This document shows, one piece after another, positions 57,526 through 63,191 of a stretch of DNA of 64,000 bases (positions within the stretch are counted from its first letter, which is position 1; each line of letters starts with the position of its first letter). The stretch is taken from the NCBI RefSeq assembly GCF_000970685.1, contig NZ_LAJB01000015.1, forward strand, positions 1-64,000, written 5' to 3'. The DNA is from Domibacillus indicus (lineage in GTDB: Bacteria > Bacillota > Bacilli > Bacillales > Domibacillaceae). The notes under the pieces were generated by a model. It was not told the origin of the DNA. It worked only from the letters and a program-made list of their open reading frames with translations, and ran no database searches. Position numbers and translations under genes: made by a program.

Positions 57526-58218
57526 TTACCTGACAATCGTCGCCCGCCAGCTGCCGCCGCCCCGGTCACAGGTGAATTGTCCAGAGACTGTTCTGCCGTC
57601 ACCGGACAGTGTGCCTCGATAATCACAATTGTTTCCGTCGCTGCTGTTCCGCCGTGCCACCCGTACAGTATTGCCATCAATAGAAATGCTCAGCACCGCT
57701 GTTACATCCTGCTGCCCGGGCTGAGTCCAGCGGGCATCAAAAATATTGCTGTTTCCGCGCCTCGTCCATACCCCCGTCCAGCCGCCTTCCTGTTCGTTCC
57801 ATCTTCTGCCCAGGCGGTCTTCAGGCTGATCACGCCGCTCAATAACCGCACTCCATGAGCCGCCGCCGCGATTGCAGATGTTTTGGCCGCTTGCTGTTCT
57901 TCCATTTGAACCGAATATTCCTGTGTAATTGCAATTATTTCCATCGCTGCTGTTTCGGCGCAAAATAAAAATATAAGGGCCGGATGTGTAGATTGTCAAT
58001 ACCGCCGTAATGTCGGGCTGTCCTGCCTGTGACCACCTTCCATCAAATACATTGCTGTTTCCTCTGCGTGTCCATACGCCGCGCCAGCTGCCTTCCTGCA
58101 CAATCCAGCGCCGCCCCAGGCCGTAGGGCTGCTGCTGTACAGGCACCACATTGGCAGGGACAGCATCAAAGGGAACAACATTGAATCCGGGGTAAAATGA
58201 ATGCCAGTATGGATACAT
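57526..58218 (-). CDS. Protein with two tandem copies of a Trp/Gly-rich domain
   Basis: The 230-residue protein has a short Pro/aromatic N-terminus (MYPYWHSFYPGFNVVPFD) without signal peptide, then two homologous domains of about 90 residues (about 38-132 and 137-230). Each has GRRW-EQEG-W-GVWTRRGNSN, RRNSSDGNNC, a central GRT-SGQ and a Cys-RGGGSW end, with two Cys per copy. The start lies after GGAGGAAAAAAGC. I do not know the family; a surface or spore-coat role is only a guess from the N-terminus. Confidence 0.75.
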   Translation of the reverse strand: MYPYWHSFYPGFNVVPFDAVPANVVPVQQQPYGLGRRWIVQEGSWRGVWTRRGNSNVFDGRWSQAGQPDITAVLTIYTSGPYIFILRRNSSDGNNCNYTGIFGSNGRTASGQNICNRGGGSWSAVIERRDQPEDRLGRRWNEQEGGWTGVWTRRGNSNIFDARWTQPGQQDVTAVLSISIDGNTVRVARRNSSDGNNCDYRGTLSGDGRTVSGQFTCDRGGGSWRATIVR

Positions 58219-58436
58219 GCTTTTTTCCTCCATTTTCAAAATGAAATCCTTCCTCCTTATGATATGCCGGGAAGCGGAAACGGGAACAAAACGAGCAGCC
58301 CGCAGTGGCGGGGAGATTAACAGGGAGAAGGAGAGATAGAAAAAGTCGACAAAACTTGCTAAAAAAATCGGTTTTCGTTTGACATGTTTTTCTTTTTTGG
58401 CACGGTATGATAAAAGAAAAAAAGGTGAGTGGGAGA

Positions 58437-58634
58437 ATGAACCGGAAGATAAACTGGTGCTGCAGCAAATGTCAAAAGCCAATACTTGCAAACGATTTGA
58501 TTGCCTGGACTAAAAAAGAAACGCTCGTTCATTTAATTTGCGACGCTTCACAATTGATGGAAGGTGTCCACTATATCGGACGTGCAGAAGAAGTAATGAA
58601 CGAAAAAGAGGCGCCCGGCCGGCACCACGCTTGA
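58437..58634 (+). CDS. 65-residue protein with Cys motif
   Basis: The short protein begins MNRKINWCCSKCQKPI, with Cys8, Cys9 and Cys12 and a later Cys near residue 35 that could form a small zinc site. GGTGAGTGGGAGA precedes the ATG at 58437. It is not recognised, and no neighbour suggests a role. Confidence 0.55.
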   Translation: MNRKINWCCSKCQKPILANDLIAWTKKETLVHLICDASQLMEGVHYIGRAEEVMNEKEAPGRHHA

Positions 58635-59036
58635 ATAGAAATATAACTGTACCGCTTCGCTTCATATCAACAAGGAATCAGCCGCACTCAGACATGTATG
58701 CGTTTAAAACGACCGGTGTTGCTGCCGGCTGATAAGTCTTGTTCTTCAAACCTATCCAAATCTTTTTGTATCCGCTTACAAACCATCATTTTTGATGGTT
58801 TTTTCCGCTTATCCGGCACACCTCAAAACGGCACTATTCCCTTTGTTTTTCGTAAAAAATAATTTACTTTTTATTCCAATAATATAGACTTAATTGATTA
58901 TTTGCTTATCCAATAAACCGGCCAAAAGATTCGTGTTTCCAGCAGAAAGGCCGTTCTGCATTTATCTTTTCTTACGTTCCCTCTATAATAGGAAAATATA
59001 TGAAAAAATGTATTGGATGGAAACGAGGGACTTAGG
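58635..59036. other. Intergenic region before the hscC-like operon
   Basis: The 402 nt contain a hairpin with T run at 58781-58804 (separately listed), then AT-rich sequence with a TATAAT (58984-58989) about 50 nt before the Hsp70 start that is probably the operon promoter -10. No CIRCE element (TTAGCACTC-N9-GAGTGCTAA) is present. Confidence 0.5.
58781..58804 (+). terminator. Intrinsic terminator
   Basis: AACCATCA pairs with TGATGGTT around a T4 loop, followed by TTTTTCC. It probably closes the 65-residue protein gene 150 nt upstream. Confidence 0.65.
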
Positions 59037-60740
59037 ATGACAACCATCGGAATTGATTTAGGGACATCAAACAGCCTTGTGGCTTACTGGGGAGAAAAGG
59101 GGCCGGTCATTATCCCCAATATATTGGGCGAACGGCTGACGCCTTCTGTAGTGAGCCTGGGCGAGAATGGGGAAATGCTTGTCGGGGAAATTGCAAAAGA
59201 GCGGCTTATTACACACCCGGCTAATACGGCGGCGGTTTTTAAGCGCCACATGGGAACAGAGAAGCATTATTCGTTGGGCTCCTATCATTTTTCTCCCGAA
59301 GAACTTTCTTCCTTTGTGTTAAAGGCACTTAAACAAGATGCGGAAGCTTTCCTGGGGGAGGAAGTGACAGAGGCGGTTATCAGTGTACCTGCTTATTTCA
59401 ATGACCGGCAGCGAAAAGCAACCCGGAAGGCAGCCGAGCTTGCCGGCCTCCAGGTGGAACGGTTAATCAGCGAGCCGACAGCGGCAGCGATTGCTTACGG
59501 GCTTCATGAAGCACAGAGTGAAACAAAGTTTCTCGTATTTGATTTAGGCGGCGGTACATTTGATGTGTCCATTCTTGAATTATTTGAAGGAATCATGGAA
59601 GTAAAGTCCATTGCGGGTGACAACTTTTTAGGAGGAGAAGACTTTACGGCTCTTCTTTCGGACTGGTTTATGGAAGTGAACGGGCTAAAGCGGGAAGAGC
59701 TGCTGCCAGCACAGCTTGCTTCCATATGGAAGCAGGCGGAAGAATGCAAAAAGAAGCTTGGCGGCCAGCAGTCTGCTGTTATTCGACTGCAGATAGAAGG
59801 AGAGATGATTCAGTCTTCCATTACCCGCACCCAATTTGAAAAGCTTGCACAGCCGCTTTTATTGCGGCTTCGCCAGCCGATCGAGCGGGCGCTGCATGAC
59901 GCGGGCATTCATCCAACAGAAATTGATTCGGTTGTTTTAATTGGCGGCGCTACCAGAATGCCTATTATTAAAAATGTGACTGGAAAATTATTCGGCCGGC
60001 TCCCACTGGGAATCATTCATCCGGATGAAGCGGTGGCACTGGGCACTGCCGTACAGGCCGCCTTAAAAGAGCGGAACGAAACGGTGGAAGAGCTGATCCT
60101 GACAGATGTCTGCCCTTATTCACTGGGAACCAGTGTTGCCAAACAGATTAAGCCGGATGAGTATGAGCCGGGACATTATTTGCCAATTATTGAAAGAAAT
60201 ACACCCATTCCAGTCAGCAAGGTGGAAAGGCTGTACACAGTGTCTGATTTCCAGACCGCGCTCAAGATTGATATTTATCAGGGTGAAAGCCGGCATGTAA
60301 AAAACAATTTAAAGCTTGGCGAGATTTCTGTGGAGGTAGAACGGGCTCCTGCGGGCGAGCAGTTCATTGATGTCCGCTATACATATGATATAAACGGGCT
60401 TCTGGAAGTGGAAGTCACCATTGTAAAAACGGGCGAGAAAAAAAGAGTGCTGGTAGAACAAAATCCCGGCAGCCAGACACAGGAAGAAATAGAGGCACGC
60501 ATGAAAGAGCTGCAGGCAATCAAAATTCATCCGCGGGAACGGACAGAAAACCGGCTGCTTCTGGCAAAAGGAGAGCGTTTCTATGAAGAATCATTAGGCG
60601 AAAAAAGACAAAGAGCCGCAGCTGTACTGGACTGGTTTGAGCGGATACTCGCAAGCCAGGACGAGCAGGATATCCGGCATGCTGCCGAGCGTTTCAAGCA
60701 GGAGCTGTCACTGCTTGAAAGGTGGGACGGCTTCGAATGA
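59037..60740 (+). CDS. hscC: HscC-like Hsp70 chaperone
   Basis: The 567-residue protein is a shortened Hsp70. The ATPase domain has IGIDLGTSNSLVAYWG, VISVPAYFNDRQRKATRKAA in two parts, VFDLGGGTFDVSILEL and LIGGATRMPII. The substrate-binding domain (about 375-490) is present but the helical lid is short, as in Escherichia coli HscC (556 residues), and the EEVD-type tail is absent. It is not DnaK: no grpE, dnaJ or CIRCE nearby. ATG 59037 follows GAGGGACTTAGG. Its stop overlaps the J-protein start by 4 nt. Confidence 0.9.
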   Translation: MTTIGIDLGTSNSLVAYWGEKGPVIIPNILGERLTPSVVSLGENGEMLVGEIAKERLITHPANTAAVFKRHMGTEKHYSLGSYHFSPEELSSFVLKALKQDAEAFLGEEVTEAVISVPAYFNDRQRKATRKAAELAGLQVERLISEPTAAAIAYGLHEAQSETKFLVFDLGGGTFDVSILELFEGIMEVKSIAGDNFLGGEDFTALLSDWFMEVNGLKREELLPAQLASIWKQAEECKKKLGGQQSAVIRLQIEGEMIQSSITRTQFEKLAQPLLLRLRQPIERALHDAGIHPTEIDSVVLIGGATRMPIIKNVTGKLFGRLPLGIIHPDEAVALGTAVQAALKERNETVEELILTDVCPYSLGTSVAKQIKPDEYEPGHYLPIIERNTPIPVSKVERLYTVSDFQTALKIDIYQGESRHVKNNLKLGEISVEVERAPAGEQFIDVRYTYDINGLLEVEVTIVKTGEKKRVLVEQNPGSQTQEEIEARMKELQAIKIHPRERTENRLLLAKGERFYEESLGEKRQRAAAVLDWFERILASQDEQDIRHAAERFKQELSLLERWDGFE

Positions 60741-62179
60741 CATATTGGGATATTCTTGGCATTGAACCGGTAGATGACCCCTCCACCGTCAAAAAAGCAT
60801 ATGCAAAAAAGCTGAAGCTTCATCATCCTGAAGATGACCCGGAAGGCTATCAGCGGCTCCGGGAAGCTTATGATGCCATTAGAAAACAATTAAAAAAGGG
60901 GCTTAGCCGGATCCCGGAAAAACAACAGGCCGCACCGGCGCAGACGGAGCAGGCACCAGTGATGACTGCCATACTTGAGCCGGAGAAGGCCGGGGGTCGT
61001 GAAGACAGCGAAGAAACGGTCAATGCTTTTATATCTAAAGTATTGGAGCTGTATAGGGATGTGCCGCAGCGGCTTCAGCTGGACAGCTGGATCAATCTCC
61101 TGAACGAGCCGGCTTTATGGGATTGGTCTTTTAAAAAGAAAGCCGGCACTCAGCTGTTTGTATTTTTAAAAGAGCACCCGCTGCTGCCAAAGGATGTCTG
61201 GCTGCTGCTTGAAGAAAGCTTTCAGTGGCGCGAGTCCATTCCTGAATATATGCTGGATAACGACCCAGATCTTTTTAGGTTTTGGACAAGCTATCAAAAA
61301 TATTTTGGTCCTTATCCGTCCTTTTCCTTTGAAGAGATTGCCCGGCAGGAAGGAGTGGACGCAGATGCGTTTCTTCAAAAACGTGAATACGCCCTGGATG
61401 CGTTTCTTGCCGGCCGCCTGACAGAAGCCAGACTCGCTGCAGAAGAAGCTTTTTCTCTTTTTTCGGAAGATCCTGACCTGCTGAGGCTTCATGGAGAAAT
61501 CTACATACAGCTGGGCGAATATGAACAAGGTGCTTTGCTTTATGAGCAGTATCTTAAATCGAGGCCGGAAGACAAAGAAGCAGTGCTGGCACTGGCTCGT
61601 ACGGAGTATGCCAGAGGGAACTGGAAAAAGACGGCTTCTTTATGCGAGGAATTAACCAATTTTTCGCAGCACCCCGGTGTATTGAGCCTGCAGGCCAAAT
61701 GCCAGCTGAAAGAAAAAGAAGCAGAAAAAACGCTTTGTATCTGGAAGGACATTCAGAAAAAGTGTTCTTATGATGCGGAAAGCTTTGTTTATTTAACGAA
61801 ACTTCACGCGTATATACGGGATCACCGGCTCAAGCTTAAACGAACACCCGGACTGCCCGCCCGGCGTGAGACGAAAGCGGCGCTTATGAAAACCTCTCCT
61901 GCTGCACGTGCCGGCCTTTTTTGCCGGTTTGTTTTTGAAGGCTTTAACTCCTTCCTCGCTATTTTAATGATTGTCAGCTGGATTGGGGTGTTAAAAACCG
62001 CATATGGAAGCAACCCGTTCGAGTTTATGCTGCTTATTATAGGCTCCCTGCTGTTTCCCAATGTTTCACTCAGCTTTATCGATTCAAAAGCCCCTTTTAT
62101 TTGGCTGGCCCTATTCAGCTGGGGTTTCTATTATTTAGCCCGTTCGATATTCCGTGCTCTCAGGGCGGTACGATATTAG
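60737..62179 (+). CDS. Membrane-anchored J-domain protein with HPE motif and TPR region
   Basis: The 480-residue protein starts with a short J domain (residues 1-50): TYWDILGIE, then KKAYAKKLKLHHPEDDPEGY. The HPD that contacts Hsp70 is HPE here (30-32). A TPR-like helical region follows (about 215-345), and three hydrophobic helices near the C-terminus (about 395-475) anchor it in the membrane. This resembles DjlB/DjlC, the HscC partners of Escherichia coli, which also end in membrane segments. It overlaps hscC by 4 nt, so coupled translation is likely. Confidence 0.87.
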   Translation: MTYWDILGIEPVDDPSTVKKAYAKKLKLHHPEDDPEGYQRLREAYDAIRKQLKKGLSRIPEKQQAAPAQTEQAPVMTAILEPEKAGGREDSEETVNAFISKVLELYRDVPQRLQLDSWINLLNEPALWDWSFKKKAGTQLFVFLKEHPLLPKDVWLLLEESFQWRESIPEYMLDNDPDLFRFWTSYQKYFGPYPSFSFEEIARQEGVDADAFLQKREYALDAFLAGRLTEARLAAEEAFSLFSEDPDLLRLHGEIYIQLGEYEQGALLYEQYLKSRPEDKEAVLALARTEYARGNWKKTASLCEELTNFSQHPGVLSLQAKCQLKEKEAEKTLCIWKDIQKKCSYDAESFVYLTKLHAYIRDHRLKLKRTPGLPARRETKAALMKTSPAARAGLFCRFVFEGFNSFLAILMIVSWIGVLKTAYGSNPFEFMLLIIGSLLFPNVSLSFIDSKAPFIWLALFSWGFYYLARSIFRALRAVRY

Positions 62180-62195
62180 AAAGAGGAGGGAAAAC

Positions 62196-62858
62196 ATGAT
62201 CAGCTTATATCCCCCTGCCAGGAAAACAGGCCGCTTTTTTCATGCGATGAGTACGCTATGCTATTCTGGAACGTTCGCTTACTATGATGCGGTAAACTGG
62301 AAAGCGAAGCTGTCTATGCAGGACAGGGAAATCCTGCTGAATGACTGGTCCATTCAGGGCGAAGAGTCTATGAAAAAAGCAGCCAGCTGGCTGCTAGAGG
62401 AAGGAAAGCGGGCTGAGTTCCGCCGATTTCAAAATCAGATGCGTTTTTTAAACAATAAAGACAGGCAGAGTGTGATAGAGTCCACGAAAGATAAGGAAGC
62501 AAAGCATAAAATGAATGTCGCCCTTCATTATATGGACCGCCTGCCGGCAGAAACGATTGCTGCACTGGATTACAGCCTTTGTGTTGCACTCTGCCTGCAG
62601 GCGGAGCGTAACGGATTTATCGGCAGGATAAATTCCCTGCCCTTTAAAACGGAAGCTGCCGTAAGGGCGCAGCAGGCATATTCAAGCTGGGCGGATTATA
62701 CTGCTGCTTTTCTGGCGGGCCTTCAGTTTACAAAGCATACAGGTGAGGAGGCACAGAAAATGATGGAGGAAGAAGAACGGTTTCTCGCCAAATTACTCGT
62801 ATCCGGCCAGAGCCCTTTTCAGAATGTGAGCTGGAATACAAAGATTTTCAGGCTGTAA
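62196..62858 (+). CDS. DUF1266-like protein
   Basis: The 220-residue soluble protein has a C-terminal segment ALDYSLCVALCLQAERNGFI, then AQQAYSSWADYTAAFLAGLQF, which follows the DUF1266 pattern (D-x-x-R or equivalent, G-x-I, SW-x-x-Y-x-x-x-x-x-x-G). DUF1266 proteins YbeR and YbeU lie beside hscC and djlB/C in Escherichia coli, which supports the call. AAAGAGGAGGG precedes ATG 62196. It is the third gene of the chaperone operon. Function unknown, possibly a client or adaptor. Confidence 0.72.
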   Translation: MISLYPPARKTGRFFHAMSTLCYSGTFAYYDAVNWKAKLSMQDREILLNDWSIQGEESMKKAASWLLEEGKRAEFRRFQNQMRFLNNKDRQSVIESTKDKEAKHKMNVALHYMDRLPAETIAALDYSLCVALCLQAERNGFIGRINSLPFKTEAAVRAQQAYSSWADYTAAFLAGLQFTKHTGEEAQKMMEEEERFLAKLLVSGQSPFQNVSWNTKIFRL

Positions 62859-63135
62859 AAACATAAGGGCCAGGAGAAAGGATGTTTTTTTGCGGGATTT
62901 TCACTCGGAAAGGATGACTGCAAAATGGAATGCGCAGGGAGAAAGGCTGGCCGTTTGCCCGGCTCTTCTTTCTTCTGTGAACAATTAAAGGTCGGCGGGA
63001 CTGCGCATTCGCCGGGACGGACACTGAACCAGCCGCCATTTCATGCAGTCTGCTCCTGCGTTCGATCAAGCACTGCTGCATGTGACTTTGTGAACGGCTA
63101 TGTGAAAAGTTAATAAAATCACATTCTAACAAAGT
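62859..63135. other. Structured non-coding region after the chaperone operon
   Basis: No supported gene. Between 62916 and 63050, 62916-62928 can pair with 63036-63050, GGCTGG (62945-62950) with CCAGCC (63029-63034) and CCCGGC (62958-62963) with GCCGGG (63011-63016), forming one nested hairpin. GAATGCGCAG (62928-62937) pairs perfectly with CTGCGCATTC (63001-63010), but this excludes the inner stems. Direct repeats TGTGAA occur at about 63087-63106. Confidence 0.45.
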
Positions 63136-63171
63136 AAAAAACGCCTCCTTCTTTAAAAGGAGGCGTTTTTT
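63136..63171. terminator. Bidirectional terminator before the chemoreceptor gene
   Basis: A perfect 15-bp stem (63136-63150 with 63157-63171) has a 6-nt loop, A-rich left and T-rich right arms. Confidence 0.9.
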
Positions 63172-63191
63172 ACAGCCTGGCTTTATCTTCG

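Follow-up and report, generated by a model that had tools for sequence, protein, structure and literature searches.

What would an accessory Hsp70 do in an operon with a membrane J-protein and a protein of the DUF1266 family, and which of these parts would decide what the machine acts upon? HscC, the E. coli Hsp70 that comes closest, has been known for more than 20 years without a clear job. The question is raised by a locus of Domibacillus indicus (assembly GCF_000970685.1, contig NZ_LAJB01000015.1), of which we analysed positions 1-64,000, hereafter the window. Three open frames on the + strand form the core of the locus:

59037..60740, + strand: Hsp70 assigned to the HscC type, 567 residues; PF00012; placed in a tree with E. 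coli HscC (100/100); no GrpE loop, extra residues in loop L1,2, short lid
60737..62179, + strand: class C J-protein, 480 residues; N-terminal J-domain with the motif HPE, TPR region, C-terminal hydrophobic segments (residues 398-416 and 430-448)
62196..62858, + strand: DUF1266 protein (YbeR/YbeU family), 220 residues; PF06889, 105.9 bits; all-helical model with a predicted local distance difference test score (pLDDT) of 94.6

The Hsp70 and J-protein frames overlap by 4 nucleotides (60737-60740) and 16 nucleotides (62180-62195) separate the J-protein from the DUF1266 frame, the same tight linkage that an original prediction from the DNA letters had given. Our analysis leads us to consider it probable that the DUF1266 protein is a subunit of the J-protein, one that would direct an HscC machine at the inner membrane face to its clients or its site of action. 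Within the trio, the J-protein and DUF1266 are the tighter unit: they occur fused, are duplicated as pairs and lie adjacent to each other away from HscC.

The Hsp70 is of the HscC type

The product of 59037-60740 matched the Hsp70 family PF00012 with an E value of 2.9e-138. With the DnaK profile TIGR02350 (NCBIfam) it scored 442.1 bits, under the cut-off of 822.55, and a canonical DnaK is encoded separately in the same genome. A tree was calculated from 47 sequences, i.e., 27 HscC-like proteins hand-picked from a set of 80 loci (see below), one more HscC-like protein, the window Hsp70, and E. coli and other controls. One branch (100/100) splits 30 HscC-like sequences (28 relatives in addition to the window protein and E. 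coli HscC) from the remaining 17 (13 DnaK, 3 HscA and one other). E. coli HscC forms a long branch, and its exact position within the HscC group is unsure (a tree shutting it out was not rejected; approximately unbiased test, p-AU 0.26).

The hallmarks of HscC are a length of 550-580 residues, absence of the GrpE loop, 4-8 extra residues in loop L1,2 and the loss of nine residues from lid helix B (PMC8215388). Aligned to the DnaK of its own genome, the window Hsp70 lacks the GrpE loop, which that DnaK has, carries an insert of ~9 residues in loop L1,2 and shows a gap of 11 alignment columns in lid helix B. At 567 residues it thus agrees with the hallmarks, insert and lid gap being slightly above the review's numbers. 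A deletion at DnaK positions 76-101 and a short loop at D211 are common to both proteins and hence not diagnostic. Identity to E. coli HscC is 38% over the C-terminal 217 residues. Judging from tree and hallmarks, we assign the protein to the HscC type. The original prediction of a short-lidded, HscC-like Hsp70 is thereby borne out, and the grouping with DnaK that would have spoken against it was not obtained.

A divergent J-protein with a predicted membrane anchor

The J-domain of the second product is divergent: it scored 26.5 bits (E 7e-6) with the Pfam family DnaJ (PF00226), just below the cut-off of 27.8, whereas the match to TPR_19 (38.3 bits) lies above its cut-off. Of the two profile matches proposed for 60737-62179, the TPR one thus stood and the DnaJ one fell slightly short. 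The J-domain aligns with those of E. coli DjlB and DjlC and has the motif HPE (His-Pro-Glu) in place of HPD (His-Pro-Asp). Hydropathy revealed two hydrophobic segments (residues 398-416 and 430-448), consistent with the C-terminal membrane anchor that had been predicted. DjlC of E. coli resides in the membrane (PMC8215388), and a location at the inner membrane face, also part of the prediction, is consistent with both.

The change from HPD to HPE is seemingly the only one tolerated, and DjlB and DjlC are assigned to HscC (PMC13254874). We compared the motif in 80 J-domains, namely 77 rows of the survey described below, the window, DjlB and DjlC. HPE is found in 55 of them and x-P-E in 75. In J-domains of Clostridia and their kin linked to HscC, the glutamate is kept while the histidine is replaced by Asn (12 of the 80; L127, L129, L136, L137, L141, L143, L152, L155, L160-L162 and L164) or Ser (7; L131, L132, L134, L135, L138, L140 and L142). 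Against these NPE and SPE domains stands the report that a change to QPD abolishes Hsp70 stimulation (PMC13254874). The motifs RPD, RPE and DPA were seen in Pseudomonadota.

We also considered whether membrane-anchored J-proteins go with DUF1266. The raw counts (30 of 36 loci against 10 of 32; Fisher p 1.9e-5, 68 loci) suggested so, 6 of the 36 loci with DUF1266 having a J-protein devoid of a clear membrane segment, but the 3-5 independent pairs left after correction for kinship gave no support and the idea was dropped. Twelve of the 80 loci were left out of this test (L094, L112, L119, L120, L121, L122, L131, L147, L149, L151, L153 and L156).

The DUF1266 protein, a possible scaffold

The third product matched PF06889 with 105.9 bits (E 3.6e-30, cut-off 27), residues 47-213 covering profile positions 2-175, so that its predicted membership in DUF1266 holds. 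It was modelled with confidence as an all-helical protein (pLDDT 94.6; predicted template-modelling score, pTM, 0.91). Foldseek, which can miss folds, gave nothing better than E 0.96 in the PDB or E 0.77 among viral models, so that no PDB match was obtained for the fold. A sequence-profile search of the PDB yielded protein A and other helical chains, which we judged to be chance. The best conserved columns are W165 (40/41), A123 (39/41), G175 (39/41) and column 82 (Leu in 37/40, Met in the window); a Trp, an Ala, a Gly and a Leu would suit a scaffold and have no catalytic look.

The domain has another use in the Pseudomonadota loci L209 and L211-L214, which encode proteins of 760-962 residues with two DUF1266 domains each, adjoining a gene for a small lipoprotein-like product (by eye); the stretch read contains no HscC.

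The trio is conserved as a module

In a sample of 24 genomes of its own family, DUF1266 was found in eight, seven of which have Hsp70, J-protein and DUF1266 together, with J-protein and DUF1266 in one frame in three of these seven. The eighth (G018) holds a decayed remnant at the same place as in the window, with the same upstream genes beside it, and an Hsp70 search found no close HscC left in this genome; G018 is one case of joint decay of DUF1266 and HscC. Among 13 genomes of the genus, the trio is present in two and a remnant in one, and ten gave no DUF1266 match (one being only 77% complete).

Sampling the order (397 genomes) gave DUF1266 in 24 genomes (23 over the cut-off), with Hsp70 and J-protein adjacent in 19; the others are G018, G047, G090, G146 and G187. 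The reverse search with the Hsp70 (E up to 1e-130) returned 20 matches, the same 19 genomes (identity at least 56%) and G307 (43%). J-protein and DUF1266 thus lie beside the close HscC relative in 19 of 19 genomes, the window's own counted, an overlap expected by chance at 7e-29 if kinship is ignored. The conserved functional module that the prediction proposed is well supported by the 19 genomes, by the fusions and paired duplications described below and by the same families in E. coli. The G307 Hsp70 (L082:2904-12265) is a different accessory Hsp70, 43% identical to the window's, and belongs to another island, where a J-like gene lies on either side of it and a VWA-like gene upstream (labels by eye); no DUF1266 match was found in that genome.

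Further away, 14 of 398 genomes sampled from the phylum have DUF1266, with Hsp70 and J-protein beside it in five, only a J-protein in one (G735) and neither in eight. Among 349 Pseudomonadota it was likewise found in 14, three of which have the trio: G1141 and G997 in the E. coli arrangement, and G1014 with all genes on one strand, ordered as in the window.

We then anchored the survey on HscC. A pattern scan of 84,980 species genomes gave at least 597 places, 571 of which were confirmed; the 80 nearest were analysed, so this set leans to Bacillota, and some of its contigs end too early to judge (e.g. L151 and L153). A J-protein lies beside the Hsp70 at 74 of the 80 loci and DUF1266 at 37 (40 genes, four fused to J), 35 of the 37 being in Bacilli (hand count by genus names) and the others in Herbivorax (L150) and a Bradyrhizobium metagenome-assembled genome (L154). 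Searching the 41 whole genomes behind the other 43 loci detected DUF1266 in seven and not in 34. In two of the seven, Paenibacillus tundrae (L120) and Paenibacillus sp. Root52 (L121), the DUF1266 gene overlaps that of an HPE J-protein, and HscC is on a different contig. Acetivibrio alkalicellulosi (L135, L224; G1167) has two HscC-type Hsp70s: the first goes with an SPE J-protein and lacks DUF1266, whereas the second has both an HPE J-protein and DUF1266. In the other four, the stretches read (2-12 kb) contained no J-protein. At L094:6952-8654 (Paenibacillus sp. JCM 10914) the HscC-type Hsp70 appears as two overlapping frames, a sequencing error or a broken gene.

These counts bear on the idea that DUF1266 is a nucleotide exchange factor of HscC in place of GrpE, for which the missing GrpE loop, present in the genome's own DnaK, might call. 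HscC, though, occurs in the 34 of 41 genomes with no detected DUF1266, HscC is expected to release nucleotide rapidly by itself (PMC8215388), and DUF1266 pairs, duplicates and fuses with the J-protein and not with the Hsp70. We regard an exchange factor as highly improbable.

Closer ties between J-protein and DUF1266

In Bacillus sp. FJAT-42315 and REN10, Shouchella clausii, Litchfieldia salsa and further relatives, J-protein and DUF1266 are encoded in one frame. Mapped onto the Hsp70 tree, the fused state requires three changes, at least two of them forced by well-supported branches; gains and losses are indistinguishable. The original prediction had left DUF1266 as partner or client of the chaperone. 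As the two are fused in one frame, a partner is favoured. That DUF1266 is the main client folded by the HscC machine would fit the adjacent genes and the fact that clients may evolve fast, but a client permanently fused to its own J-protein in several genera is hard to envisage and many DUF1266 genes occur with no adjoining HscC, which leaves this reading with very little probability.

Pairs are also duplicated as such. Two J-DUF1266 pairs lie by one Hsp70 at L096, L101 and L116, and E. coli likewise has two, ybeR-djlB and ybeU-djlC. When L096 is compared with L101, every copy has its closest counterpart at the same position (first J-protein 45%, first DUF1266 45%, second J-protein 45%, second DUF1266 62%), by which the duplicate pairs of these two loci are judged co-orthologous (L116 was outside the comparison). 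The pair also stays together away from HscC: in G735, G1159 and G1160, two of which are Paenibacillus and all of which look closely related, an HPE J-protein and DUF1266 overlap by 62 nucleotides while the HscC gene (61% identity) is elsewhere. The places concerned, with HscC alone at one and the overlapping HPE J-protein and DUF1266 at another, are L120:6891-8648 and L121:6891-8648; L228 and L229; and L072:4156-7438.

Across 34 loci, tree distances correlate at 0.91 between Hsp70 and J-protein, 0.66 between Hsp70 and DUF1266 and 0.74 between J-protein and DUF1266; with the Hsp70 partialled out, the last value is 0.445, reached by none of 2000 permutations. Between the window and D. robiginosus, identity is 51% for the J-protein and 49% for DUF1266 against 82% for the Hsp70 and 69-85% for five neighbours. 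Non-synonymous divergence (dN) is 0.38-0.40 for the pair, 0.10 for the Hsp70 and 0.09-0.20 for the neighbours; dN alone was used, as synonymous sites are near saturation and gave infinite values for DUF1266. Within the J-protein, the J-domain is 82% identical and the remainder 46-48%. Such a pattern would suggest that motor and trigger are held steady and that the would-be target-choosing parts change fast.

The predicted structure of the natural fusion from S. clausii (pLDDT 85.6, pTM 0.74) shows a J-domain, a helical region, a TPR superhelix, a hydrophobic hairpin and DUF1266; its PDB matches include TPR proteins such as MamA. As the hairpin precedes DUF1266 in the fused proteins, DUF1266 would stay on the J-domain, i.e., cytosolic, side. 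This hairpin is weakly hydrophobic in the FJAT-42315 and REN10 frames.

An alternative that needs to be weighed here is that DUF1266 shares regulation and stress conditions with HscC and the J-protein yet acts separately, for instance in catalysis or signalling independent of them. DUF1266 genes do occur in many contexts with no HscC beside them, and most Clostridial HscC-J loci have no DUF1266. Such independence is hard to reconcile with the one-frame fusions, the co-orthologous duplicate pairs, the J-DUF1266 pairs kept together away from HscC, the co-occurrence in 19 of 19 genomes and best conserved columns that do not look catalytic. We consider separate action unlikely, if less so than the client and exchange-factor readings.

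A model for the HscC machine

In the model that we prefer, with DUF1266 as a subunit of the J-protein, the operon would encode a dedicated second Hsp70 machine in which the HscC-type Hsp70 acts as the ATP-driven motor. Because its GrpE loop is absent, this Hsp70 would be expected to cycle without GrpE. The J-protein would use its C-terminal hydrophobic segments to keep the Hsp70 on the inner side of the cell membrane and would trigger the ATPase of the Hsp70, the HPE-type J-domain suiting HscC and not DnaK. DUF1266, helical and probably not an enzyme, would be a subunit attached to the J-protein, most likely at the TPR or membrane-proximal part, and would help to choose the client or site passed to HscC. 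The J-DUF1266 contact, its topology and the role in client choice are what we infer from the observations above. A bolder version, in which DUF1266 proteins form an unrecognised class of Hsp70 co-chaperones in Bacillota and Pseudomonadota, i.e., fast-evolving all-helical adaptors of unsolved fold that sit on membrane HPE J-proteins and set the targets of HscC, is tentative, and we place it somewhat short of even chances.

Several observations weigh against the model. The trio is not universal, DUF1266 being undetected at 43 of the 80 HscC loci, and numerous DUF1266 genes are located at other places. The Clostridial loci of this set almost all have HscC and J but no detected DUF1266, and therefore the machine can work without it; most encode a long J-protein (834-1195 residues), and no constant substitute for DUF1266 was seen by eye in the gene starts listed. 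In the phylum sample, 9 of the 14 genomes with DUF1266 have no Hsp70 beside it (one of the nine has the J-protein, with its HscC elsewhere), and 11 of the 14 in Pseudomonadota show neither Hsp70 nor J-protein in the 9-16 kb read (the read of G1103 starts at a contig end). The association of anchored J-proteins with DUF1266 is unsupported on the 3-5 independent pairs, and the fused model has a pTM of 0.74. Finally, E. coli HscC, when overexpressed, is reported to bind sigma70 and inhibit it (PMC3861889), a possible hint at a soluble role.

Relation to known systems and earlier reports

The closest known system is the E. coli HscC-DjlB/DjlC-YbeR/YbeU locus, which unites the same three families; the gene set is as the prediction had given it, hscC with djlB, djlC and the DUF1266 genes ybeR and ybeU. 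DjlB and DjlC share the HPE J-domain with the window J-protein and have one C-terminal hydrophobic segment each, where the window protein has two, and DUF1266 and J genes overlap by 4 nucleotides in E. coli. Gene order differs, with Hsp70-J-DUF1266 on one strand in the window and DUF1266-J twice, with hscC on the other strand, in E. coli. The ATPase of E. coli HscC is stimulated by DjlC and not by DnaJ (PMC8215388). Deletion of hscC, or of djlB and djlC, is reported to raise cadmium sensitivity, and the ybeU operon was up 2.8-fold with slyA (PMC5797941). The DnaK-DnaJ-GrpE system follows the same logic of an Hsp70 plus a J-protein, but the window proteins lack the GrpE loop, have a short lid and carry HPE for HPD. 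HscA-HscB also features a specialised Hsp70 without GrpE loop and, in E. coli, its own J-protein gene adjoining; however, HscA falls on a different branch (100/100), and none of nine neighbouring window proteins matched an iron-sulphur assembly family (two of the nine matched nothing).

Our searches of the open literature found no account of an HscC-J-DUF1266 module, in line with the prediction, which knew of no description in Firmicutes, although Barriot et al. 2020 on bacterial J-proteins may mention it. No title or abstract start combining HscC with Firmicutes or Bacillus dealt with the module, the available part of PMC11019930 is silent on it, and the terms ybeR and DUF1266 are absent from the HscC review PMC8215388. 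A Dickeya fangzhongdai paper has neighbouring hscC, J-protein and DUF1266 genes in its table of species-specific genes, uncommented in the part available; other literature on DUF1266 concerns YnjI with an insertion sequence and an expression table. With the Hsp70 and the J-protein, a known pair gains new members. The novelty, within the limits of our searches, lies in a third component of the machine, DUF1266, whose tie to the J-protein extends across Bacilli and some Pseudomonadota. A component fused to, duplicated with and kept beside the J-protein in two phyla offers a concrete handle on HscC and, if the model is true, would assign a function to a family of unknown role.

Flanking features of the operon

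A possible promoter element and terminator-like hairpins flank the operon:

58984..58989, + strand: possible -10 box of the operon, TATAAT, by eye; weak, as the scan gave no matching -35 and did not list the box itself
63134..63173, listed on the - strand: terminator-like hairpin with 18 pairs; it separates the operon from the gene that follows, which is convergent
63147-63163, + strand: shorter hairpin at the same site

A search of the window for the CIRCE heat-shock operator (controlling inverted repeat of chaperone expression; up to 3 mismatches allowed) gave no match. A defence system was considered and rejected, as the three operon proteins gave no PADLOC match at E up to 0.01. In a search of 72,556 plasmid records (E up to 1e-5) the DUF1266 protein found no match, and the Hsp70 matched 49 phage records, never reaching 60% identity. 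The neighbouring protein at 57526-58491 (- strand), with no Pfam match at E up to 1e-5, contains two similar Trp-rich repeats (by eye) and is conserved in D. robiginosus and G018.

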